DNA from: a bacterium
Lineage (GTDB): Bacteria; Patescibacteriota; Saccharimonadia; CAILAD01; GCA-016700035
Length of the DNA: 37,986 nt
Direction: 5' to 3'
NCBI GenBank assembly: GCA_020854115.1
Contig: JADZGC010000012.1
Location: 64,301-102,286, forward strand
Position 1 is the first letter of the stretch; the number at the start of each line of letters is the position of its first letter. Under the pieces are notes generated by a model. The model worked only from the letters and a program-made list of their open reading frames with translations. It did no database searches and was not told the origin of the DNA. Shown in pieces: positions 2,484-23,944 of the stretch. The translations under genes were made by a program, and so were the position numbers.

Positions 2484-4139
2484 CTATTGTACTCCGCAGA
2501 AGTAGAGGAAGAACTGGAAGCAGCTTACTGTCTTACTGACGAGGGGAGAGGAAGCGGATTGGGTGCTGTTTTTTGCCTTGATCTGGTAGGTGTATGAGTC
2601 GAATACGTTGACTGGGGACTCTACAAACGATGTAGTTGTCGTGTTAATTGTATTCTTGCCTGGGCGTATGACATCATAACTCGTAGCGCCCGGTACTGCC
2701 GACCAGCTGAGCGTCAGCTTACAATTGTTCTTCCAGCTGCACGGTTCGAAGGACCATATGGCATAGTCGAGTGAGAAGTTTCTGAAAGTGGGTGCCGAAA
2801 GAGTCGTCGGTGTCTGTGTGGGCGGGATCGAGGTGGCAGCTGGAGGCGCCGTAGTTGGAGTCGGAGGTAGTGATGTTACGGTAGGGGGCACGCTAGTTGT
2901 GGTTGGTGGCACAGTCGTGGTAGTCGGAGGTACTGATGTTGTTGAAGGGGGATTGCTGGTAGCTCGGCTTGGGAATTCACCACAGGGCAGCAGATATCCT
3001 CCTCCTTCTGGTAATCCGAGTTTGTATTTTGCCACGTTGACACGGTATTTGCTGACGATCATACAATCTTTTATCGTTGTATACTCGGCGATCCAGACAG
3101 CTTTATTGGCATTCGTAAAGAGCTGTACGCCAGGATAATCTTTGCCATCTGCTCCTCGCATCCCACTGACCTGACTCGAGTCTGGTGCGTTCGTAATCGT
3201 GGTACATTCGGAGTATTGGATACATTCTTCTATCAGCGCCCAGTCAAAGTCATTTACAAGATCGTGGGCTTGCTCGAGATCGCCTTTGAGCCCAATACTC
3301 ATGCCCGCTTCGTGTGCCCAGCTAGCCAATGCTCTATTGTAGGCGATTTGGTCTTGGTAGGTAATGCCGGCATGGCCATTCACGACCACATTATCGAATC
3401 CATTGTCGTTACTCCAGTTTGTAATTTCATCAGGCTCGATCCCGTCAAAGCCCTTTGACTTACAGGCATTAATGCGACTTTGCATGATGGGCTTGAGGGC
3501 TTCTATCTGACGAATATCAAGCCAGTATGAACCATCCCATCCATCGTCCACGTCCCCGATGAGGTCTATCGATTTATGGGCTGCTACACCGTTGTATGGG
3601 ATGGGGGTAGTTCCCCAGGTATTTTTGCCTTCGGCTGACTGGGCGATGCGGTTTTTGTTTGGACCCCAAGTTCCCGGGAACAAATGAGCGTCTTTGCGAT
3701 AGTCTTCGAACACGCCGGCATCGAAATAACAGATTACTTTTTTGCCCATAGTGTGTAATTTTGCCACATCTTCAGCGGTAGTGTATTCCATGTCTAGGTC
3801 AAGGACATCTGCGCCTCCGGGTACGGGATTGCCATTACTGTCTACGGTCCCCATGTCTTTTGGATTATTGAAGTTGATACGTCCGCCCAGTATCCACGAG
3901 AGTTTTAGTGGTTTATCAGCGGTAGGCTTCCAGTAGGTAGCCGTCGTGGCTGCTCTTGAGGAAATGAGTAGAAAGCCTAAGACAATGATTCCAAGAATCG
4001 CAGCGATTGCCGTGACGATGGGAAAGCCTTTGGATTTATAGATCTGACTCGCAAACATTTGTTTGCCCCCTCTCTTTCGGGTGCGTGATAGGGTGCTCGT
4101 GGTCGCCTTCGAGACTTTTTTGTAGGTATTTTTTTTCAT
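2484..4139 (-). CDS. Signal-anchored GH114-type glycoside hydrolase with FN3 domain
   Basis: 551 residues. A basic N-terminus (KKNTYKKVSK, RTRKRGG) precedes a membrane anchor at about 38-62 ending SSRAA. Residues about 70-380 match the GH114 (endo-alpha-1,4-polygalactosaminidase-like) barrel, including KLSWILGG, VLDLDMEY, KKVICYFDAG, SYWLDIRQ, FDGIEPDE and DWALIEEC. A Thr/Pro linker of PPTTT-type repeats (about 390-440) leads to one FN3 domain and a Cys-aromatic-Cys tail, CFQFFLYFC. The family cleaves galactosaminoglycan, a biofilm or wall polymer; the substrate here is inferred. The enzyme is probably anchored outside the membrane. It is transcribed divergently from queA. Confidence 0.85.
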   Translation of the reverse strand: MKKNTYKKVSKATTSTLSRTRKRGGKQMFASQIYKSKGFPIVTAIAAILGIIVLGFLLISSRAATTATYWKPTADKPLKLSWILGGRINFNNPKDMGTVDSNGNPVPGGADVLDLDMEYTTAEDVAKLHTMGKKVICYFDAGVFEDYRKDAHLFPGTWGPNKNRIAQSAEGKNTWGTTPIPYNGVAAHKSIDLIGDVDDGWDGSYWLDIRQIEALKPIMQSRINACKSKGFDGIEPDEITNWSNDNGFDNVVVNGHAGITYQDQIAYNRALASWAHEAGMSIGLKGDLEQAHDLVNDFDWALIEECIQYSECTTITNAPDSSQVSGMRGADGKDYPGVQLFTNANKAVWIAEYTTIKDCMIVSKYRVNVAKYKLGLPEGGGYLLPCGEFPSRATSNPPSTTSVPPTTTTVPPTTTSVPPTVTSLPPTPTTAPPAATSIPPTQTPTTLSAPTFRNFSLDYAIWSFEPCSWKNNCKLTLSWSAVPGATSYDVIRPGKNTINTTTTSFVESPVNVFDSYTYQIKAKNSTQSASSPLVSKTVSCFQFFLYFCGVQ

Positions 4140-4276
4140 TTTTGTTGATTATTTACATTGATTAGCATAAGTATATTCAAGCTCATTTTAACATATGGAG
4201 TAGTCATGTATAGTGATGAGGCGATCTAATTGAAAAATAGCTGAGAAATATACGATACATCACAAAAGTTCACTCA

Positions 4277-5317
4277 ATGATGCACAAAAAGCCAATTCAA
4301 CCATTCGAATATACGCTGCCAAATGAGCTGATCGCTCAGCGACCTCCGGCAGTGAGAGGTGCATCGAGCCTCTTAGTGCTGGATCGAGCCTCGGGGGACA
4401 TGCAGGATAGGCGATATCGCGATTTGCCAGATTATGTTCGGCCGCAAGACGTTGTGGTGTTGAATGAAACCAAAGTAATCCCGGCCCGTCTCCATGCGGT
4501 CACTCAGTCTGGTGCACGCCGTGAACTATTTCTGACAGAGCGCCACCATGGCCCTATGCTAAGTCACGTGGGCCGCGCGATCTATAGGGGTAAGTTGCGA
4601 GCGGGGGATGTATTGCGGGTAGGTAAGGAGTCTATAGAAATCATCGAGATACTTGAAGATGGCGAAGCGCGCATCCGAGCCACTCTACCACTCGTAGTTT
4701 TGGCCGAGCGGGCAGGTGCCACTCCTTTGCCACCCTACATCAAACGCACGGCAGATAAAGCCGATGCAGAGAGGTATCAGACAGTCTTTGCACGACGCGA
4801 AGGTTCAGTGGCTGCACCAACTGCGTCACTCAATCTCACAAATGAGATTATGAATGAGATCAAGGATCGCGGTGCACAGATAGTGAAGCTCACATTACAC
4901 GTGGGGCGCGGTACATTTATGCCAATTCGTACAGATTCTCTCGAGCAGCACGTCATGCACCGTGAATATTATTCGATGCCTGTTAGTACCTTGAGAGCAA
5001 TTCGTCAGGCGCGCAAGTGTGGTGGTCGGGTCATTGCGGTTGGTACGACTGTCACGCGAGCGCTGGAGCATGCCGCGGCCAGCATCTTGGCTAATGAGGA
5101 TACGTCGATTCGTGACGAGGCTGACACTTTTATATACCCGGGGTATAGGTTTCAGTTAGTCGATATGCTGCTTACAAACTTTCATGCACCTGATTCGACC
5201 GTTTTGCAGCTAGCAGCAGCTTTTGCAGGTCCTCAATTCCTTAAACGCGCATATGACCATGCTCTAGCGAGTGATTATCGTTTCTTGAGCTACGGCGACT
5301 CTATGTTGATTTTGTAA
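4277..5317 (+). CDS. queA: tRNA preQ1 ribosyltransferase-isomerase QueA
   Basis: 346 residues, the normal family length. QueA transfers and isomerises the ribose of S-adenosylmethionine onto preQ1 at tRNA position 34 to make epoxyqueuosine. Family blocks visible are YTLPNELIAQRP near the start, LNETKVIPARL, PLPPYIKR, GSVAAPTASLN (usually GLHF), LTLHVGRGTF and NFHAPDST, and the C-terminal YRFLSYGDSMLI. No other queuosine gene is in the window, so preQ1 may be salvaged. The start chosen is the first of two adjacent Met codons; no strong ribosome site is visible. Confidence 0.95.
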   Translation: MMHKKPIQPFEYTLPNELIAQRPPAVRGASSLLVLDRASGDMQDRRYRDLPDYVRPQDVVVLNETKVIPARLHAVTQSGARRELFLTERHHGPMLSHVGRAIYRGKLRAGDVLRVGKESIEIIEILEDGEARIRATLPLVVLAERAGATPLPPYIKRTADKADAERYQTVFARREGSVAAPTASLNLTNEIMNEIKDRGAQIVKLTLHVGRGTFMPIRTDSLEQHVMHREYYSMPVSTLRAIRQARKCGGRVIAVGTTVTRALEHAAASILANEDTSIRDEADTFIYPGYRFQLVDMLLTNFHAPDSTVLQLAAAFAGPQFLKRAYDHALASDYRFLSYGDSMLIL

Positions 5318-5320
5318 TGG

Positions 5321-5995
5321 TTATATTTGCGGGAGTTTTTTTATCGATTTGTAGCCCTGCATAGTCGAAACAAGAGCTAGAACACACAGTGCGCCGAAGA
5401 GTAGTTGCCCAGCGAAAAACGTTAGTAGAGCGAAGAGAACTTGCAAGATTAGGAGTACGCGTAGGTAGCGGATGGCTTGGGCTGGACGCTTGGAGCGCAT
5501 AAGTATGATCGACAGTATGATGAGAGGAATGGTAAACGCGAGCATAATCGCACCTGACAGGCGGACATCTGATGCGGTGAGACCTGTATCTGTCCCCGAG
5601 GATGCAATATAGCCATCGGGGTCGAGCATAAAATACAGCCCGCCTAGGCTATTAAAGCCTGCTATGGCAATCATAATCCAGCTGGCGATTCGGATTTCTT
5701 TGATGTGACCCATCGAAGGTATGGCAACTTGATCGACCGGGATAGGTGTATTGGGTGGTGGTACTGCCGAAGCCGCGCCTGTAGTTGCTGGGGGTGCAGG
5801 AGTTGTAGGGGGTGCAGGAGTTGTAGGGGGTGCAGGAGTTGTAGGGGGGATGGTTGGTTTGGCTGATACTGTTGTGGCAGTTGTCTGATTTGATGTCAGC
5901 GGCTTGCCACAATTGCCACAAAATGGAGCCTCAGCTTTGGTCGGCTGATGACAGTATGGGCAGATTACTTCTGATGCTTGGCTTCCTGCCGGCAT
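5321..5995 (-). CDS. Zinc-ribbon membrane protein with TTPAPP linker
   Basis: 224 residues from ATG 5995, chosen because AAGGAAG lies 5 nt upstream. Longer in-frame starts would run into the preceding gene. A zinc ribbon of two CxxC pairs (CPYCHQ, CGNCGKP) is followed by a Pro/Thr linker with three TTPAPP copies, then about four membrane helices. The start is 37 bp after the PrsW-like gene stop on the same strand, and that protein also ends in a zinc ribbon, so the pair probably works together. The molecular role is unknown. Confidence 0.75.
   Translation of the reverse strand: MPAGSQASEVICPYCHQPTKAEAPFCGNCGKPLTSNQTTATTVSAKPTIPPTTPAPPTTPAPPTTPAPPATTGAASAVPPPNTPIPVDQVAIPSMGHIKEIRIASWIMIAIAGFNSLGGLYFMLDPDGYIASSGTDTGLTASDVRLSGAIMLAFTIPLIILSIILMRSKRPAQAIRYLRVLLILQVLFALLTFFAGQLLFGALCVLALVSTMQGYKSIKKLPQI
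5793..5846 (+). repeat. Three perfect 18-bp tandem repeats inside a coding linker
   Basis: GGTGCAGGAGTTGTAGGG occurs three times without a break (5793-5810, 5811-5828, 5829-5846). The unit is a multiple of three and encodes TTPAPP on the minus strand, so copy-number change would only alter linker length. Confidence 0.95.
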
Positions 5996-13596: not shown

Positions 13597-14772
13597 ATGC
13601 GCAGAACGACCACATACAGCAGATTCCTCGAGGTGTGTAAGTATTGGCTGCCCCGGTCTTGGTTGTGGCGATCATACTTGGTGTGTACTGGTTGGCCTTG
13701 AGTCAGCCAGCCCAGGAAGCGGTGCAGTCGTTTGCGCAGCGCAATCCGTTCTTTGTTGACTATCCGAAGACGATACTTGGCATAAATATACCTGCACTTG
13801 TAGCCGCACTTGTGAGCTTACTCGGGATTTTGTTGTATTTCTGGATCGACTACAATGTCTTTCGAGCTCCTTTGATTGCTGAGAACCCAAAGATCCGCTA
13901 TACAGTCAAGCATCACCTGAAGGTCGTGACACTACCGAAGATTAGACATCGTCGGTCGTCAATTGAATACTGGTCATCGTTGTTTCTGTCGATGATGACA
14001 GCGCTGATCGTAACGACTATCTTTATTATCCAGCTAGTGCGAGCGATTGCTCCAACGGTGACCACTGGTAGTGCGAGTGAAATTACTCAGACATCCGTCA
14101 GATTGTCAGGAAATGTGACCTCAAATGGGTCACAAACTCTAACGGTGCGGGGCTTTGAGTATGGGCCGACTGTGGCGTATGGCAGTATTGTATCTGACAC
14201 TAAGCCAGATACCTATCAGTTTGCTTCGAGCTTTGGGGGTAGTGGATCGGGCAATGGTCAGTTTAGTCAGCCGGCTGGAATTGCGAAAGACTCGAGCGGG
14301 AATATCTATGTCGTCGATTACGCCAATCATGCTCAATGGCGCGGTGAGTGGGGCGGTGCAGAGTTTGCAGGCGGCAGTTGATGCGAAGCAAATACAGATT
14401 ACGCAGACAATTCCACTTAATCTGGGAGTAGCAATGAGCCCAGTTGTTTTGCAGCAGCTACTGACATCGGTGCTTGATAACGCAATCAAGTTTAGTAATG
14501 CTCGAGGGATTGTTGAGGTGCATGCCGAGAGTAGAAGGTCGCGTGCTATCATTACTATCAGCGATACGGGTGTCGGTATCCAGCGAGATAAACTCAATCA
14601 GCTGATGGCGCCATTCTCTCGTGCGACGGATGTGATGCGGTTTGACTATGAAGGTATGGGACCCTCACTCTATCTGGATAAAGTGATAATGGAGCAGGTC
14701 GGGGGCACGTTCACTATCGACTCAGAGCCTGAGAAGGGGACAACCGTCACGCTGGAGCTACCGACTAGCTAG
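13597..14772 (+). pseudogene. Internally deleted paralog of the NHL-repeat sensor kinase
   Basis: The remnant aligns to both ends of the 1875-aa kinase at 17165. Its first piece (ATG 13597, MRRTTYSRFLEVCKYW) is followed by a frameshift near 13645. The next frame (13644-14381) carries the membrane helices, the FN3-like segment RGFEYGPTVAYG and the start of the first NHL repeat (NIYVVDYANH). Near 14330 the sequence jumps, in another frame, to the kinase C-terminus (LNGAVSGAVQSLQ...) through N-box LDNAIKFS, G1 box DTGVGI and GMGPSLYLDK, ending at 14772. Roughly 4.5 kb of the ancestral gene is missing. The C-terminal part could still be translated as a short ATPase fragment, but no good start is seen. 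Confidence 0.8.
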
Positions 14773-14863: not shown

Positions 14864-16150
14864 ATGAAGGTCGTAGTTGTTGGTGCGGGTGGGCGCGAAC
14901 ATGCGCTCGCCGATAGCTGCCATCGTCAGGGGCATGAAGTCATCGTGACCCCAGGCAATGCTGGCATTCCGTGGTCGACACCGACCCCACCGCAAGAGCT
15001 GGACGCTGATCTCTTTGTGATCGGGCCCGAGCAACCGCTGGTTGATGGCTTGGCCGATGAGTTGCGTGCTCAAGGCAAGCTGGTCTTTGGGCCCGGCTAC
15101 CCCGGCATCCGTATCGAAGCATCCAAGGCATTCATGAAAGAGTTGGTGCAAGCATCAGGCGCACCGACTGCGCGCTTCGTGGTAATTACAGACGAAGGCG
15201 AGCTCGATGATCTTTTACCGTCGTTCTTCGCTGGAGAAAACCCTGGCGCTGTCGTTAAGACAGATGGTCCGGCGGCGGGCAAGGGCGTGACTGTCTGCGA
15301 GACGGTCGAAAAAGCTCGTGCAGATGCGCTCGCCAAGCTGCGGGGTGAGAGCTTCGGAGAGTCGGGTCGACAGATTGTCATCGAAGCGCTACTCGGCAAG
15401 GCAGACCTCAGTGATTGCTACGAACGCTCGGTTTTCGCTCTGGTTCGTGTTGATAAGGACGGATTCCAGCGGCAGCTTGTGCCCATGATGGCGCAGGACT
15501 ACAAGCGGGTGAGTGATGACCCGACTTCGCCGATGACGGGCGGCATGGGATGCTATGCCCCGACGGGCGACGAGGACAAGCTCGAGCAGTGGGCGAAGGC
15601 ATGTATTGATCCGGTACTCGAGCTGATGTCGAGACGGTGTATTCCGTATGTCGGGTTCATGTACTTCGGGCTGATGATTGTGGACGACAAGCCGTACGTA
15701 CTCGAGATCAACATCCGTTTCGGAGATCCGGAGGCTGAGGTACTGCTCCCGCTTGTCACGTCCGACCTTGCGGTGGTCATGCGATCTGCGGCGAAGGGCG
15801 AGACGATTCCGCCGGTTCATTGCTCGAAAGCATATGCAGTGACGGTCGTGCTAGCGGCCGAAGGGTACCCCGATAAGCCTCGCAAGGGTGACATCATCTC
15901 GGGCTTGCCGCAACTACTCCAGGCTCGGCAGGCAGGCGTGCACGTCTATGCCGCCGGGGTGGAAGACAGTGGCTACGCAGACATGATGTTGACCAGTGGT
16001 GGACGCGTACTCGAAGTGACCGCAACAGGATTCACCGGTGAAATCGCTCGCCGTCGTGCGTACGAAGCGGCATTGCAGATCAACTTCGTCAACGCCGACG
16101 ACAGTGATACAAAACAGCTGCGACATGACATTGCCGCTCACTGGGCATAG
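14864..16150 (+). CDS. purD: Phosphoribosylamine-glycine ligase
   Basis: 428 residues, full length for PurD, an ATP-grasp enzyme that joins glycine to phosphoribosylamine in step 2 of purine synthesis. Visible blocks are KVVVVGAGGREHALA at the start, GPEQPLVDGLADEL, SKAFMKELV, VVKTDGPAAGKGV, PMTGGMGCYAP and EINIRFGDPEAEVLLP, with no lost motif. GGGAGG lies 11 nt before ATG 14864. The only other intact purine gene here is purE, while purB and purC are represented by a broken fusion, so its present pathway role is doubtful. Confidence 0.97.
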   Translation: MKVVVVGAGGREHALADSCHRQGHEVIVTPGNAGIPWSTPTPPQELDADLFVIGPEQPLVDGLADELRAQGKLVFGPGYPGIRIEASKAFMKELVQASGAPTARFVVITDEGELDDLLPSFFAGENPGAVVKTDGPAAGKGVTVCETVEKARADALAKLRGESFGESGRQIVIEALLGKADLSDCYERSVFALVRVDKDGFQRQLVPMMAQDYKRVSDDPTSPMTGGMGCYAPTGDEDKLEQWAKACIDPVLELMSRRCIPYVGFMYFGLMIVDDKPYVLEINIRFGDPEAEVLLPLVTSDLAVVMRSAAKGETIPPVHCSKAYAVTVVLAAEGYPDKPRKGDIISGLPQLLQARQAGVHVYAAGVEDSGYADMMLTSGGRVLEVTATGFTGEIARRRAYEAALQINFVNADDSDTKQLRHDIAAHWA

Positions 16151-16996: not shown

Positions 16997-17149
16997 ATAG
17001 TCCTATCTAGTTTATCCGATGCCCATAACATTTGTATTTTGATCTTTTATGTCGCGTTGAGTTATTTCGCATTACTCATCGAAGGCTCAGGGAAGTGCGG
17101 TGTAATATGAGTGGATTCAAATATCGATGTAATTGCGGGCAATGTGCTA

Positions 17150-17155
17150 TATAAT
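17150..17155 (+). promoter_or_regulatory. -10 hexamer of the sensor kinase gene
   Basis: Consensus TATAAT ends 9 nt before ATG 17165, so the 5' leader would be about 3 nt or absent. No -35 close to consensus is visible. Confidence 0.5.
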
Positions 17156-17164
17156 GCATGTAAT

Positions 17165-20100
17165 ATGAAGGTTAAGCTTTCTGGTTTGAGACAGATCACT
17201 CATAGATATTGGCGAACAATAATTATCATTAGTACTCCTGTCATAACCTTCCTCATCGCTTGGCTAATCAGCAAGACACCTGTATGGGAGCAGGCTTTGC
17301 GTACACAGCCAAATGAACAGAACCTAAACATCTTACCAAGCTTGCTAGCTAGTAAGTCGGGTATGGCTTGGTTTCTTACCTTACTACTAATCTTATCTAT
17401 AGGTATCTATGTCTGGGTTGATTATTTGATTCATGCCAAGCCGCTTTTTGAGTCTAGCATCAGAACAAAATATACCCCCCTACATCATATCCGTGTTGTT
17501 GCACTCCCAAGGATCAAGCACAACTGGGCGATACTCACAAAGACATTGATGGCCGGTTCTTCAGCGAATATCTTACTGATGTTTGTATTACTAGTTTTCA
17601 CTTCAGGCGTTCGAGCTGCAAGCCCGGATGTTGTTACAAATAGCGCTAGTAATATTACGCACGGCTCAGCCAGATTGAATGGTACTATTAGTGATGATGG
17701 TGGAGCATCGCTTTCGAGTCGTGGCTTTGAGTACGGTACTGACACGAGTTACGGCAAGACTCTTAGCGAGGACCTGCCAGATTCGGGATCATATGATACG
17801 TGGGGTGAGACCAAGAACGGAACAACATTACTAAATTCTAGAGTTGTCTATCATGAAAATTTTGTTTATGTGGGTGGACCAGGCAAGGTGCAGAAATTTA
17901 CCCCAGAAGGAAGCTATGTGTCTAGTATTGGCAGCCTGGGCGAAGGTTCTGGGCAGTTTCTGGCAGCCAATGGAATAACTTTTGATGCCAGCGACAATAT
18001 GTTTGTTTTTGATGGTAGCGATAATATGGAGCCTGGATTTAGGGCGATAACAAAATTTGCCACTGACGGGACAGTTTTAGCAAGATGGGGGGAGAGGGGT
18101 TGCGCTGAGGGGCAGTTTAGCAAAGGTATGGGCGCTATCGTTTCAGACAGTAGTTATATCTACGTACTTGACACTGGCTGTAATCGTATACAGAAGTATG
18201 ATACTAGCGGTAATTTTATTGCTACCTGGGGATGGGGTGTCGATGATGGCAGTGCAGCTTTGCAGGTGTGTACTTCTGGTTGCCAGGCTGGAATTTCTGG
18301 TAGTGGAGTTGGGCAATTAAGTAATGTGGCGACGGGTATTTATCTAGATGGCTCTAGTCTTTATGTTGCTGATTCGTCTAATAATCGAATTCAGGTTTTT
18401 GATACGTCAGGGGGTTATATAAATGCTTGGGGTTCAGCTGGTTCGGGTTTGGGTCAATTCATTATGCCGACCGATATTACAAAGGTTGGTACGACACTAT
18501 ATGTTATCGAGACATTCAATAATCGTGTGCAGAGCTTTACGACTACGGGATCTCCAATTGCAGTGTGGGGAACTCAGGGGACCAACGATGGTCAGTTTCA
18601 GATGCCCTTCAGTATAACGGCAGATAGTAATAACCTATACACGGCTGAACTAAGCATATTTGGGGGTATGAACCGTATACAAAAATTTACTACATCCGGC
18701 AGCCATCTGGATACGTGGGGTGAGCCTGGGCCAGGTGAATTGGCGTTTCCTTCTGATATTGCCTTTGCTCCAGACGGTAGTCTGTATGCAATCAGCCAAG
18801 CAACCTTTAATGTGCATCATTTCAGTGCTACTGGTGAGGCCCTGGGTAGTTGGGGTGGAGGGCTTGGTTCGGGCCCAGGCCAATTTGGTGGCAGTATTCA
18901 TGGAATAGCCGTAGACTCTAGTGGCAATGTTTATGTATCCGATAAAAACGATCGTATCCAGAAATTTTCTAGCACAGGGACACTACTTGCGACTTGGGGA
19001 ACTCATGGCTCAGGGGATAATCAGTTTAGTACGCCAGCTGGAATTGCGATAGATAATAGTAACAATGTTTATGTTGCAGACAAAGATAATAACCGTATCC
19101 AAAAGTTTAGTAGTAGCGGTAGCTTTATAGAGATGTGGGGTTGGGGCGTTGACGATGGCAGTAATGTATTTCAGACTTGTTCATCTGGTTGCCAGGCCGG
19201 TATCCAAGGCACTGGTAATGGACAGTTCGCCAGTCTGCACGGACTAGAGTTTAACTCATCCAATCAGCTATTGGCGGCTGATGGAAATCTTGGAGGAAGG
19301 GTACAGACTTTCAGTACGACAGGAGTTTATCAATCGCAATGGGCCTTTGACGGAGGAGGATCATGCAATGGATGTTACGTTACGGTTGATGAGCAAGACA
19401 ATGTATACGTTACGAATTCAAATAGCATAAAGAAATATAATCCTGACGGATCATTTCTTGCCAATATTGGATCTCAGGGATATGGCGCGGAACAGTTTCA
19501 GGATGTACGTGGTATTGCCGTAGACGGCCAGGGTAATGTATACGTTGCTGACGAGTATAAGTCCCTGATCCACAAATACCCTCAGCCAATCAGTAGTAAC
19601 TTTTTTTTGACAACATCCAAGCTATTGTGTGAGACAACTTACCATTACCGTGCGTTTGCTGTAAATAGTGATGGTACTGGCTACGGTAGTGACCAGACGT
19701 TCCTTACTGGAAGTTGTACGAACGCAACCGTACCTAGTGCACCGAGCGGACTTAATACTAGTTTGGTTGCGTACGATTCGATCGCAATAAATTGGCAAGA
19801 GCCGAGTGATTTCGGAGGACGCGCACTAGGCGATTATATTTATGAGTATAAGAAAAGCAGTGACAGTACATGGATGGGTGACGTAACCCCCAATCTGTCG
19901 GAAATGATAGGTCCCCTGGATGAAAATACTTCTTATGATTTCAGGGTCGCTGCTACCAATAGTGTAGGAACGGGTCCATACACCTACATGACGGTTAGTA
20001 CTGTGGACGGAGGAGCGAGCCATACGTTATCATCTTGTGCAGACCTCGAGACGATTAATTATGATCTTATTGGTACGTATACCTTAGCCCAAGACATTGA

Positions 20101-22792
20101 TTGTAGTGGATATAACAGAACCATTCAGGCAAGTGGCGGCGAGGAATACACATTTGATGGCTTTTTCCCGATAGGTGCCTACAGTTCAGACGGCTTTGGC
20201 TTTAGGGGCACATTGAACGGAAATGGCTACAAAATAAACAATCTAAAAATTAACACGACAGCTATGAAACTAGGTTCTACGGGCTTGTTTAGGGTTACAG
20301 CTGGCGCAACCATTCAAAACCTCCAACTTGCCAACATCGATTACGACGTCAGTGGAAATGGATATGTTGGTGGCATTGTTGGCTATGCTTTGCGCACAAC
20401 TTTTACAAACGTTTCGACTACCGGTTCGATTACTGGACAACTGTCAACAAATCATGCAATCCTCACCATGGGTGGTATAGCTGGAACACTTGAAGTCGAG
20501 TCATACTTGCACAAGGTATATTCGTCGGTTAATCAGACCGTTACGCAAGACCTAGCAGCGAATGAAAGTTCCTTAATGGTTGGTGGATTAAGCGGATCAT
20601 TTGGGTACGGTACGGTGATGAATGGTAGTTTCTTACCGCCCGAATGGAGCCAAGATTTTCCTTCACCTGATGAAATAGTGAGCGGCCATTTGGAGGATAC
20701 ATACTATACTGGATCGATAAATGTAACAGGCATCGATGATGCAGAGACCACTCCTTTCATTGGCGGTATAGGTGGCATATTAATCCAGGGCGTGATTGAA
20801 AATACATATTTTGGCGGTTCGATAATAACGTCAAATACATCATCATGGATTGGTGGCATTGCACCTCCGGGCGCGTCGGGCGCAATGATTATCCGAAACT
20901 CATTTGTGGCAGGCTCGATAAGTAATGGAAATACTGTCCCCAACCCATTTATGGGGACAAATACTGTACCCCTTACAGCCTTTGCGACTTCTGGTGCCCC
21001 ATATCCAGATTCGATCATACAGGGTAACTTTTATGACAAAACTGCTATAGACGGAGATTATTGCTATTACTATGCTGTCATCAATAACCCACCGGTAGGA
21101 GTAAATAACCCTGCACATTGTCAGGCGGTAAACACAGATGGTTCCCAGCCAAATTATTTCAAGAACAATAGTGTCAACGGACCATTTACGGAGTGGGACT
21201 TTGATAATGTTTGGTTTGTTTGGAGCAATGATTTCCCGAAGTTTATCGCACAGCAGCAATCAACACCCTCACCAACCCCTACTCTTACTCCTACACCAAC
21301 ACAAAACCCTCCAACCGCTACCCCTACGCCCTCAACGCAGCCGCCGCCCCTGCCCCCAGTATCGCCTCTACCTAGTCCTCCTACGACTAGTCAGTTGATG
21401 CCAGGCACTTCAAATAGTCTCTTCGTACCAATGGCCTCACCGACCCCTACCCGTGCAGTAGATTCAAAAGTCACAGGCACGCTTTTAGATGGGTTCTTGA
21501 CCCAAGTTAAGCAAATGCCAGATGTGATTGCCTTAGCTATACCCTTGATCATTATTTTAATTCTAATAATGATTGCACTGTTGTATGCTCGCCAAGCATG
21601 GATTGAGTATCGCAATCAAAAACGACTCAACACGGTTGTCGATCGCTTCAAATACACTCGCCAAGCGAGCCAAAACTTCGTGGGCTTAGTATCTCATTAC
21701 TTCAATACACCTATTGGAATAATGCAGCTTGCGTTTGGTCAGCTCAAAGAAGAGAAGGCATTGACTACTCAACAGATGTCCCATATAAATCAAGCGATTA
21801 ATTCTATTGCTTCTGACGCAAAACAGTTAATTACAGGCGCCCAGCAGACAAACGAAGAAATTGCTGTCGCGTATAAAGAACAAACAATGATACAATCAAA
21901 AAATCCATTTAGACAGCTAGGAGTTTGGCTGCCAAGCCTATTGGTTGGGATTATCTTACTACTCCTAAATATCATCTACCGAGCTGCAAATCGCAACACA
22001 CTCAGCTTTACCGTGGCTTTCCTCGAAGTATTTTGCTTCATTGGCGGTGTGTTGCTACTCATATTTGCCCATCAATCGCGCGAGAAGCACATAGCCTTGA
22101 AGAATGCTATTCAGAGGCAGGCTGACCTAGAAAAAGACTTACTTTCAAGACGAGTCGACTTCATTCATAAGGCAACTGAGAAATTTGAATCTGACCTCGC
22201 GATTATCAATATGTACACTCGTTCAATTAAATCCGGTTCAACCGCTGCGCAATTTAAAGCCGGTGCTGCTCAACTAGCCCGACTGATAGCACGTCTGAAA
22301 TCGCTAGCTGTCATGGAGAGGCTTGATCCGGTCAATCAGACCCCAATTTCGCTAGGGGCAGCAGTCAATACGGCACGTGAAGCCATCGCGAAGATACAGA
22401 AAAGCGAAAACGTAACCTACGACATTGACATACCGCTTAATATGTATTCATCAATGAATGCCACGGCTCTTCACCAGGTGCTGACTTCAGTCATTGAAAA
22501 TGCCGTAAACTATGCTACACAAAATAGTTCGATTCAGATCCGTGGCGCTCTGAAAAATGGGCTTCCGATCATCACGGTACAGAATCAAGGCTTCGTCATA
22601 CCTAAAAAGCAGCTTGATCAACTGATGACACCATTCTCAAGGGCAGTTGACGTACTGCGCTATGATCACGAAGGGCTCGGGCTTTCGCTCTACCTAGATA
22701 AAGTAATCATGGAGCGAGTTGGCGGAGAGATTAGTATCACATCATCCGAAAAGTCTGGCACGGTTGTGACGTTGATGCTGCCGAAGAATTAA
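17165..22792 (+). CDS. Giant membrane sensor kinase with NHL and GLUG ectodomain
   Basis: 1875 residues from ATG 17165; the frame extends 18 codons upstream to GTG 17111, but the TATAAT favours 17165. Order: N-terminal membrane helices (about 15-165), FN3-like segment (155-200), an array of NHL-type beta-propeller blades (about 210-810, recurring W..G..G..GQF and IQKF patterns), FN3 (850-950), GLUG-type region (GNGYKINNLKI, GGIVGYAL; 955-1350), Pro/Thr linker (1364-1420), a membrane helix (1452-1475), an H-box SHYFNTP with His1511, two more helices (1588-1638), a second helical segment and a C-terminal HATPase_c domain (N-box ENAVNYA; GLGLSLYLDK). The G1 box reads NQGFV instead of DxGxG, so ATP binding may be altered. 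No response regulator is adjacent. Probably binds an extracellular ligand or a partner cell surface (inference). Confidence 0.85.
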   Translation: MKVKLSGLRQITHRYWRTIIIISTPVITFLIAWLISKTPVWEQALRTQPNEQNLNILPSLLASKSGMAWFLTLLLILSIGIYVWVDYLIHAKPLFESSIRTKYTPLHHIRVVALPRIKHNWAILTKTLMAGSSANILLMFVLLVFTSGVRAASPDVVTNSASNITHGSARLNGTISDDGGASLSSRGFEYGTDTSYGKTLSEDLPDSGSYDTWGETKNGTTLLNSRVVYHENFVYVGGPGKVQKFTPEGSYVSSIGSLGEGSGQFLAANGITFDASDNMFVFDGSDNMEPGFRAITKFATDGTVLARWGERGCAEGQFSKGMGAIVSDSSYIYVLDTGCNRIQKYDTSGNFIATWGWGVDDGSAALQVCTSGCQAGISGSGVGQLSNVATGIYLDGSSLYVADSSNNRIQVFDTSGGYINAWGSAGSGLGQFIMPTDITKVGTTLYVIETFNNRVQSFTTTGSPIAVWGTQGTNDGQFQMPFSITADSNNLYTAELSIFGGMNRIQKFTTSGSHLDTWGEPGPGELAFPSDIAFAPDGSLYAISQATFNVHHFSATGEALGSWGGGLGSGPGQFGGSIHGIAVDSSGNVYVSDKNDRIQKFSSTGTLLATWGTHGSGDNQFSTPAGIAIDNSNNVYVADKDNNRIQKFSSSGSFIEMWGWGVDDGSNVFQTCSSGCQAGIQGTGNGQFASLHGLEFNSSNQLLAADGNLGGRVQTFSTTGVYQSQWAFDGGGSCNGCYVTVDEQDNVYVTNSNSIKKYNPDGSFLANIGSQGYGAEQFQDVRGIAVDGQGNVYVADEYKSLIHKYPQPISSNFFLTTSKLLCETTYHYRAFAVNSDGTGYGSDQTFLTGSCTNATVPSAPSGLNTSLVAYDSIAINWQEPSDFGGRALGDYIYEYKKSSDSTWMGDVTPNLSEMIGPLDENTSYDFRVAATNSVGTGPYTYMTVSTVDGGASHTLSSCADLETINYDLIGTYTLAQDIDCSGYNRTIQASGGEEYTFDGFFPIGAYSSDGFGFRGTLNGNGYKINNLKINTTAMKLGSTGLFRVTAGATIQNLQLANIDYDVSGNGYVGGIVGYALRTTFTNVSTTGSITGQLSTNHAILTMGGIAGTLEVESYLHKVYSSVNQTVTQDLAANESSLMVGGLSGSFGYGTVMNGSFLPPEWSQDFPSPDEIVSGHLEDTYYTGSINVTGIDDAETTPFIGGIGGILIQGVIENTYFGGSIITSNTSSWIGGIAPPGASGAMIIRNSFVAGSISNGNTVPNPFMGTNTVPLTAFATSGAPYPDSIIQGNFYDKTAIDGDYCYYYAVINNPPVGVNNPAHCQAVNTDGSQPNYFKNNSVNGPFTEWDFDNVWFVWSNDFPKFIAQQQSTPSPTPTLTPTPTQNPPTATPTPSTQPPPLPPVSPLPSPPTTSQLMPGTSNSLFVPMASPTPTRAVDSKVTGTLLDGFLTQVKQMPDVIALAIPLIIILILIMIALLYARQAWIEYRNQKRLNTVVDRFKYTRQASQNFVGLVSHYFNTPIGIMQLAFGQLKEEKALTTQQMSHINQAINSIASDAKQLITGAQQTNEEIAVAYKEQTMIQSKNPFRQLGVWLPSLLVGIILLLLNIIYRAANRNTLSFTVAFLEVFCFIGGVLLLIFAHQSREKHIALKNAIQRQADLEKDLLSRRVDFIHKATEKFESDLAIINMYTRSIKSGSTAAQFKAGAAQLARLIARLKSLAVMERLDPVNQTPISLGAAVNTAREAIAKIQKSENVTYDIDIPLNMYSSMNATALHQVLTSVIENAVNYATQNSSIQIRGALKNGLPIITVQNQGFVIPKKQLDQLMTPFSRAVDVLRYDHEGLGLSLYLDKVIMERVGGEISITSSEKSGTVVTLMLPKN

Positions 22793-22821: not shown

Positions 22822-22849
22822 TTGGTGATTGAGCGAAATAATGTATAAT
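22822..22849 (+). promoter_or_regulatory. Promoter still present before the purB-purC remnant
   Basis: TTGGTG (22822-22827) and consensus TATAAT (22844-22849) are 16 nt apart. An AGAGGAA ribosome site precedes ATG 22900, so transcription and initiation signals outlive the broken gene. Confidence 0.6.
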
Positions 22850-22899
22850 CACTCGGTTCGTATTCGAAAAAGTACCTACCCACAACTAGAGGAAATGAG

Positions 22900-23301
22900 A
22901 TGACTACCAAACCCGTTATCGAGAATATCCTGGCCCAGCGCTATGCATCTGTACCGATGTGTCAGCTTTGGTCTGAGCGCGGCAAGATCATCGCCGAGAG
23001 GCAATTCTGGGTCGCGATCATGCGCGCTCACCAGCAAGCGGGGTTCGATATCTCCGATACGGTGATCGCCGACTTCAAGATCGAGCTCGGACTGACCAGC
23101 GATGGACGGCTCGTTGTGGCAGACGTTATCGACAACGACTCATGGCGAGTCTGGAGGGGCGGCAAGAAATAAGGTCAAGTTGACAAGCAGGTCTTCCGTG
23201 AAATCGTCGGACAAATGGACGAGTCACAGCGTCAGTCACTCAAGAAGCTCTTCGAGCAGGTAGCAGAAGCAACCGACGAGTACGGACGACCGAAGACATG
23301 A
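22900..23301 (+). pseudogene. purB-purC deletion fusion with an in-frame stop
   Basis: The first 54 codons ([46 protein letters not shown]) match the N-terminus of actinobacterial-type adenylosuccinate lyase PurB. From [21 protein letters not shown] through [11 protein letters not shown] the frame is the C-terminal part of SAICAR synthetase PurC. The join lies at ADFK, a stretch both ancestors plausibly shared. TAA at 23170-23172 interrupts the PurC part, which resumes in frame as GQVDKQVFREIVGQ and runs to TGA 23299-23301. Neither active site survives. It still has a promoter, ribosome site and terminator. Confidence 0.88.
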
Positions 23302-23306
23302 CATCC

Positions 23307-23333
23307 GCCGGGAGGCTCACCCCCCCGGCTTTT
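23307..23333 (+). terminator. Rho-independent terminator after the purB-purC remnant
   Basis: GCCGGG (23307-23312) and CCCGGC (23324-23329) form the stem, followed by TTTTC. Confidence 0.8.
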
Positions 23334-23337
23334 CTTA

Positions 23338-23366
23338 TTGACATAATGATTTGTGCGCAGTAGACT
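23338..23366 (+). promoter_or_regulatory. Promoter of purE
   Basis: Consensus TTGACA (23338-23343), a 17-nt spacer and TAGACT (23361-23366). It begins right behind the preceding terminator, so purE is transcribed independently. Confidence 0.75.
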
Positions 23367-23404
23367 TGCCAAGATCATTTTTGTACCTACTGAGGAGGAG
23401 ACCA

Positions 23405-23944
23405 ATGGTCTTGCAAGTTGAGAAGTTCAAGCGAGGCGCAGTACCTGGAGAGCCGTTCATCGGCATCATCATGGGTTCGTGGAGCGACTGGGCTGCTGGG
23501 ATGAACATGGCACTCACTACGCTCGATGAGTTGGGTATCCCCGCTGAAGCTGCCGTGATCTCTGCGCATCGTACGCCCAACTTGATCCAAGAATATGCAT
23601 CACGAGCGATCAGGATGGATTTCTCAGCAGTCATTGCAGCAGCCGGGGGTGCCGCTCATCTTCCAGGTATGGTTGCTGCACACCTTCCTTCAATCCCAGT
23701 GGTAGGTGTGCCGATGAAGACCTCCACTTTGGGGGGAGCAGATTCGTTGCACTCGATTGTGCAGATGCCGCCCGAGATTCCTGTTGGCACAATGGCGATA
23801 TCGGGGTGCGTGAATGCAGCCCTGTATGCTGCCCAGATAGAGGGTGTCAGAAACGTGTCGGTGAAAAACGCTCTGTACGTTCGTCGTTTGGGGCTGACAG
23901 ACCTGGTCATGCAGCATCCTGACCCGTCGGTTGACCCGCGCTGA
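23405..23944 (+). CDS. purE: N5-carboxyaminoimidazole ribonucleotide mutase
   Basis: 179 residues from ATG 23405, chosen because AGGAGG (23393-23398) is 6 nt upstream; the frame is open further 5' but without initiation signals. PurE converts N5-CAIR to CAIR. Class I motifs are intact: GIIMGSWSDWAAGMN, GIPAEAAVISAHRTP, AVIAAAGGAAHLPGMVAAH, PVVGVPMKTSTLGGADSLHS, and MPPEIPVGTMAI. No purK is nearby. The sequence is apparently under constraint, in contrast with the broken purB-purC remnant just upstream. Confidence 0.95.
   Translation: MVLQVEKFKRGAVPGEPFIGIIMGSWSDWAAGMNMALTTLDELGIPAEAAVISAHRTPNLIQEYASRAIRMDFSAVIAAAGGAAHLPGMVAAHLPSIPVVGVPMKTSTLGGADSLHSIVQMPPEIPVGTMAISGCVNAALYAAQIEGVRNVSVKNALYVRRLGLTDLVMQHPDPSVDPR

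Follow-up and report, generated by a model that had tools for sequence, protein, structure and literature searches.

Deletion-fusion pseudogenes are a familiar product of genome reduction in bacteria: two genes are truncated and joined by one deletion, and point mutations follow. The locus described here has the truncation and joining of two genes, the point mutation and the retained flanking expression signals in common with these pseudogenes, but differs from them in that the join is in frame and falls at a motif that is similar in both genes, so that the event is legible nearly to the single base. As a case of genome reduction this is ordinary biology, but the scar is unusually readable. 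For bacteria with reduced genomes of this sort (freshwater CPR), the reported coding densities point to few pseudogenes or to little recent gene loss (PMC9166423), which makes a scar whose join is readable useful for understanding how a pathway is dismantled and in which order its steps are lost. A literature search found nothing on a purB-purC fusion pseudogene, nor on such a pattern of purine genes in this group. The frame at 22900-23301 of the window (the whole stretch of DNA analysed, 37,986 nucleotides) is very probably a pseudogene that arose by deletion and fusion and carries a nonsense mutation.

Two homologies in one frame

Translation of the plus strand from the ATG at 22900 gives 90 codons up to a TAA at 23170-23172, followed by 42 further in-frame codons up to a TGA at 23299-23301 (Table 1). 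A profile search matched residues 1-57 to positions 1-40 of the PurB model TIGR00928 (E = 6.7e-5), and the same residues were found to be 39-46% identical over 57 amino acids to the intact PurBs of G020 (a relative of the same class), G003 (of the same order) and an Acidimicrobiales MAG, with E values of 2e-10 to 2e-15 in a small database. From residue 58 onward, the same frame encodes the C-terminal part of PurC, matching positions 160-231 of PF01259 when the stop is masked as X (E = 5.1e-15). Alignment with 13 intact PurCs revealed that DFKIELG and a further PurC motif, and then DKQVFRE behind the stop, are in register. The first-pass annotation had assigned 54 residues to the PurB N-terminus, with a switch at ADFK into the C-terminal region of PurC, and had proposed a separate homology search of each segment. 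These searches returned the start of PurB (TIGR00928) and the C-terminus of PurC (PF01259), as expected from that reading; the switch was upheld and the join refined to about 23068-23076, whereas the PurB part extends to residue 57-58 and not 54.

The two parts therefore match two different intact genes, and most of each gene is missing. The fusion shares with PurB the start region, about 57 residues, and lacks about 420 residues that form the bulk of the enzyme. With PurC it shares the C-terminal 70 or so residues, including DFKIELG and another motif, whereas the first 200 or so are absent and the remainder holds the in-frame stop. As a full-length PurB the frame failed, scoring 21.8 bits over TIGR00928 positions 1-40 only (cut-off 326 bits), and as a full-length PurC it also failed, scoring 30.3 bits over the C-terminal positions 175-245 only of TIGR00081 (cut-off 189.9 bits). 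Since the 90-residue product consists only of a PurB start and a C-terminal piece of PurC, it cannot perform either reaction.

Table 1. Features of the purB-purC remnant and of the neighbouring purine genes (window coordinates).
Feature	Positions	Strand	Basis
purD, intact reading frame	14864..16150	+	TIGR00877 312.6 bits, cut-off 288; 25/28 near-invariant columns kept
TATAAT, possible -10 of the former purB promoter; convincing -35 absent	22844..22849	+	read directly
AGAGGA, ribosome-binding-like site, 6 nt before ATG 22900	22888..22893	+	read directly
PurB N-terminal segment, residues 1-57	22900..23070	+	TIGR00928, identity to intact PurBs, alignment
Join at codons A-D-F; A as in PurB, F-K-I-E as in PurC, D compatible with both	23068..23076	+	alignment, DNA of relatives
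PurC C-terminal segment up to the stop, residues 58-90	23071..23169	+	PF01259 E 7.6e-10, 90-residue ORF alone
In-frame TAA nonsense codon	23170..23172	+	GG-K motif of intact PurC before it, DKQ-R motif after it
Rest of the PurC C-terminus after the stop, in frame as far as TGA 23299-23301	23173..23301	+	raises the PF01259 match by 17 bits
Terminator-like hairpin with T run, downstream of the remnant	23307..23333	+	-15.2 kcal/mol, z -2.5
Promoter-like site for purE, TTGACA, 17 nt, TAGACT, in the gap after the remnant	23338..23366	+	consensus scan
purE, intact, own ribosome site	23405..23944	+	TIGR01162 156.4 bits, cut-off 149.6; 23/25 near-invariant columns kept

The join and the proposed deletion

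At the join site, intact PurBs have VADYE, LPAYE or IEAYE, intact PurCs have LVDFK or LVDLK, and the chimera has IADFK. The corresponding DNA of relatives, GCCGACTATGAG in the purB of G020 and GTCGATTTCAAA or GTGGACCTCAAA in purCs, has few bases in common. The suggestion made from the sequence at first reading, that the join used a short shared stretch, holds in part: a similar motif occurs in both genes and may have served in the join, but the common DNA of the relatives amounts to only a few bases. A short microhomology at the join is plausible on these alignments. A repeat search detected no flanking repeat able to have driven the deletion; the repeats that it found between two NHL-kinase genes are 60-74% alike and lie within the NHL blades.

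The proposed ancestor would have carried an operon of purB, then purC (and purE), from which about 1.9 kb would have been lost in a single event, the deletion starting near codon 58 of purB and ending near codon 200 of purC. The intact proteins of G020 are about 480 (PurB) and 280 (PurC) residues long, and if the two genes were adjacent, some 420 purB codons and 200 purC codons would have been removed, so that the purB start with its ribosome site would share one frame with the final quarter of purC. The cut in the PurC part would be due to a separate nonsense mutation, either earlier or later than the deletion. Adjacent genes in this order are found in the Acidimicrobiales locus L017 (purB 3327-5003, purC 5033-5956, 29 nt apart), and an Eremiobacterota MAG locus (L024) has purB followed by a PurC-PurE fusion. 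The order purB-purC-purE therefore has precedent, and given the arrangement in L024, the position of purE downstream of the remnant requires no further rearrangement. For this lineage, the ancestral order is inferred, because other orders occur in the class: purE is divergent from purC-purB in G045, G108, G124 and G139, and G003 has purB beside purD, with purE-purC at another place. The order in G020 is purN-purM-purB-..-purE-purC-purH.

The genome comprises 790 kb in 21 contigs, with an estimated completeness of 99.5%, and the window covers the end of a 102 kb contig. Size, relatives and gene content suggest that the class is Saccharimonadia-like Patescibacteria. In a whole-genome family search, the fusion was the sole match to PurB and to PurC; the absence of intact parent genes elsewhere supports loss, although a pseudogene of this kind does not strictly require it. 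It is improbable that the organism has intact purB and purC and that the frame is an assembly or binning artefact, produced by a misjoin of the assembler or, for the stop, by a base error. The assembly is a draft, and a motif similar in both genes is also a possible site for a misjoin, but the missing 420 PurB codons and 200 PurC codons are nowhere else in the assembly, the join is internal to the contig and not at its end, and further purine genes are absent as well. An indel error does not explain the stop, since the reading frame does not shift across the TAA.

Expression signals

The promoter, ribosome site and terminator had all been described as still present at first reading. The ribosome site AGAGGA and the terminator-like hairpin were found, whereas the promoter is only half recognisable, with a perfect TATAAT and no passing -35; a consensus promoter scan gave no two-hexamer site at 22844. 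Folding placed the hairpin at 23307-23329, followed by TTTTCTTATT; it was absent from the list of a consensus terminator scan. The promoter-like site of purE is weak alone, about 1.3 such sites being expected by chance in 1.3 kb, and the ribosome site of purE, AGGAGGA at 23393-23399, is strong. With its own predicted promoter-like site and ribosome site, purE can be expressed independently of the broken gene.

The stop codon and the age of the scar

The PurC homology crosses the stop, as shown by the rise of the PF01259 score from 39.4 bits, when the frame is cut at the stop, to 56.3 bits, when the part behind it is included. The earlier reading of the TAA as a stop within a PurC frame that continues to 23301 was thus confirmed, and the whole-genome PurC search likewise reported one TAA inside the match. 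The remnant therefore has a disabling in-frame stop with homology behind it, as is found in deletion-fusion pseudogenes.

No excess decay is visible in front of the stop. The PurB part is identical to three intact PurBs at 20-23 of 49 positions, and these share 19-23 with one another. The PurC part before the stop has a mean identity of 64.5%, compared with 53-69% for intact PurCs, and keeps all 14 of 14 near-invariant residues. Behind the stop, the mean identity to intact PurCs drops to 26.9%, below that of every intact PurC compared (33-43%), a contrast that is based on about 30 residues on each side and on small samples. A lower identity is expected there, if this part is no longer constrained. 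The simplest reading of these comparisons is that the scar is young and that the segment after the stop has drifted slightly or was variable anyway. The lack of excess decay before the stop fits a young scar, and would fit a retained short ORF also.

That the 90-residue chimera serves as a small protein kept for a new function, with the stop as its proper end, is slightly less probable than an artefact. The frame has its own start, a ribosome site, a perfect -10 and a hairpin behind it, and shows no excess divergence before the stop and more behind. However, a recent scar predicts an equal lack of decay, the contrast across the stop involves only the short segments noted above, the complete domain of neither enzyme is present, and no PurB-PurC chimera was found among the other 146 relatives searched. 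A separate search for related loci likewise gave matches to one half or the other, among which no chimera was recognised. Read-through or recoding of the TAA is highly improbable: the 42 open codons behind the stop have PurC homology, but such a run is not rare by chance, the product would still be without most of both enzymes, and table 11 gives a normal reading of the window's other genes.

Purine genes in the genome

The probable pseudogene belongs to a pathway that is already without its later steps in this genome. Genome-wide searches gave no match for AIRS (PurM and PurL), AICARFT (PurH) or adenylosuccinate synthetase (PurA), for which 12 to 14 of 14 control genomes were positive. Of the eight families searched, PurF, PurD and PurE survive as intact ORFs. 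PurF is full-length, with 486 bits to TIGR01134 and 42 of 42 near-invariant columns kept, and the nearby purD and purE, described as intact at first reading, both proved to score above the cut-offs of their models (TIGR00877 and TIGR01162). PurD is the most divergent full GARS_A match in the class (151 bits versus 206-253).

The first-pass annotation regarded the fusion as a loss of purine synthesis in progress. This view was not borne out: since the PurM/PurL-type, PurH and PurA genes are already undetectable genome-wide, while PurF survives, the fusion stands as a late relic beside losses that are complete, and is not the loss itself. Judged from gene content, the known pathway can no longer yield purines de novo. 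Since further copies of PurB and PurC are absent, as are PurM/PurL, PurH and PurA, neither de novo purines nor the normal route from IMP to AMP would be available, which implies purine uptake, and we infer that the organism is auxotrophic for purines.

Orphan PurF and PurD in relatives

The repeated retention of orphan PurF and PurD is more interesting than the fusion, and their presence in genomes unable to complete the pathway is a testable puzzle. Eight families were searched in members of the same order. G003 has intact purB and purC, together with purD, purE, purF, one AIRS gene and two ORFs that match PurH; G004 (99% complete) has purF alone, G011 has purF and purD, and G010 has purD only. 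Of the same family, G001 (62% complete) was the only other genome among the relatives, and it has purE but neither purB nor purC. In G003, the AICARFT domain of PurH is split between C9:2852-3055 and C9:18746-19507, about 16 kb apart, covering model positions 1-66 and 62-311.

PurF scored above the cut-off in 21 genomes of the class, of which 11 have no AIRS match (3 of these 11 are less than 90% complete). These PurFs are at L147:7707-9221 (G000 C4) and in the relatives G004, G011, G014, G015, G030, G034, G038, G040, G115 and G140. Such a distribution suggests, from gene content, a role of PurF outside purine synthesis. Simple decay of PurF is argued against by the 73% identity of the genome's PurF to that of G004, and by their similar gene neighbourhoods. 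One tentative possibility, for which the retention of PurF alone, PurF with PurD, or PurD alone in relatives of the same order speaks, is that the locus is not in mid-decay but part of a stable end state, in which the lower pathway was lost first, and PurF, PurD and perhaps PurE were kept for a role outside purine synthesis.

Several further patterns were observed in the class. PurE and PurC, without a full PurB, PurM/PurL-type or PurH match, are present in G028, G059, G062, G063, G066 and G072, and this orphan PurE-PurC pair occurs in several families. Divergent proteins of the adenylosuccinate synthetase family are found in family f7 (G053, G059, G061, G062, G072, G091, G114, G133, G138 and G144), with scores of about 99-127 bits versus 350-490 for others; they could be of a different substrate class, for example PurZ-like enzymes. 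In G108, a second lyase of the PurB superfamily (C1:69291-70268) has an in-frame TGA.

A second deletion-like scar near purD

A second deletion-like scar, at 13644-14772 of the window and about 8 kb away from the fusion, was counted in favour of the deletion-fusion pseudogene reading. A frame with one NHL repeat (13644-14381) is overlapped, in another frame, by a histidine kinase ATPase domain (14155-14772; HATPase_c, E = 7e-21), and the whole resembles a shortened, frameshifted copy of the 1893-residue NHL-repeat histidine kinase encoded at 17111-22792. Each of these NHL-kinase loci lies shortly upstream of a purine gene, 13644-14772 of purD and 17111-22792 of the purB remnant.
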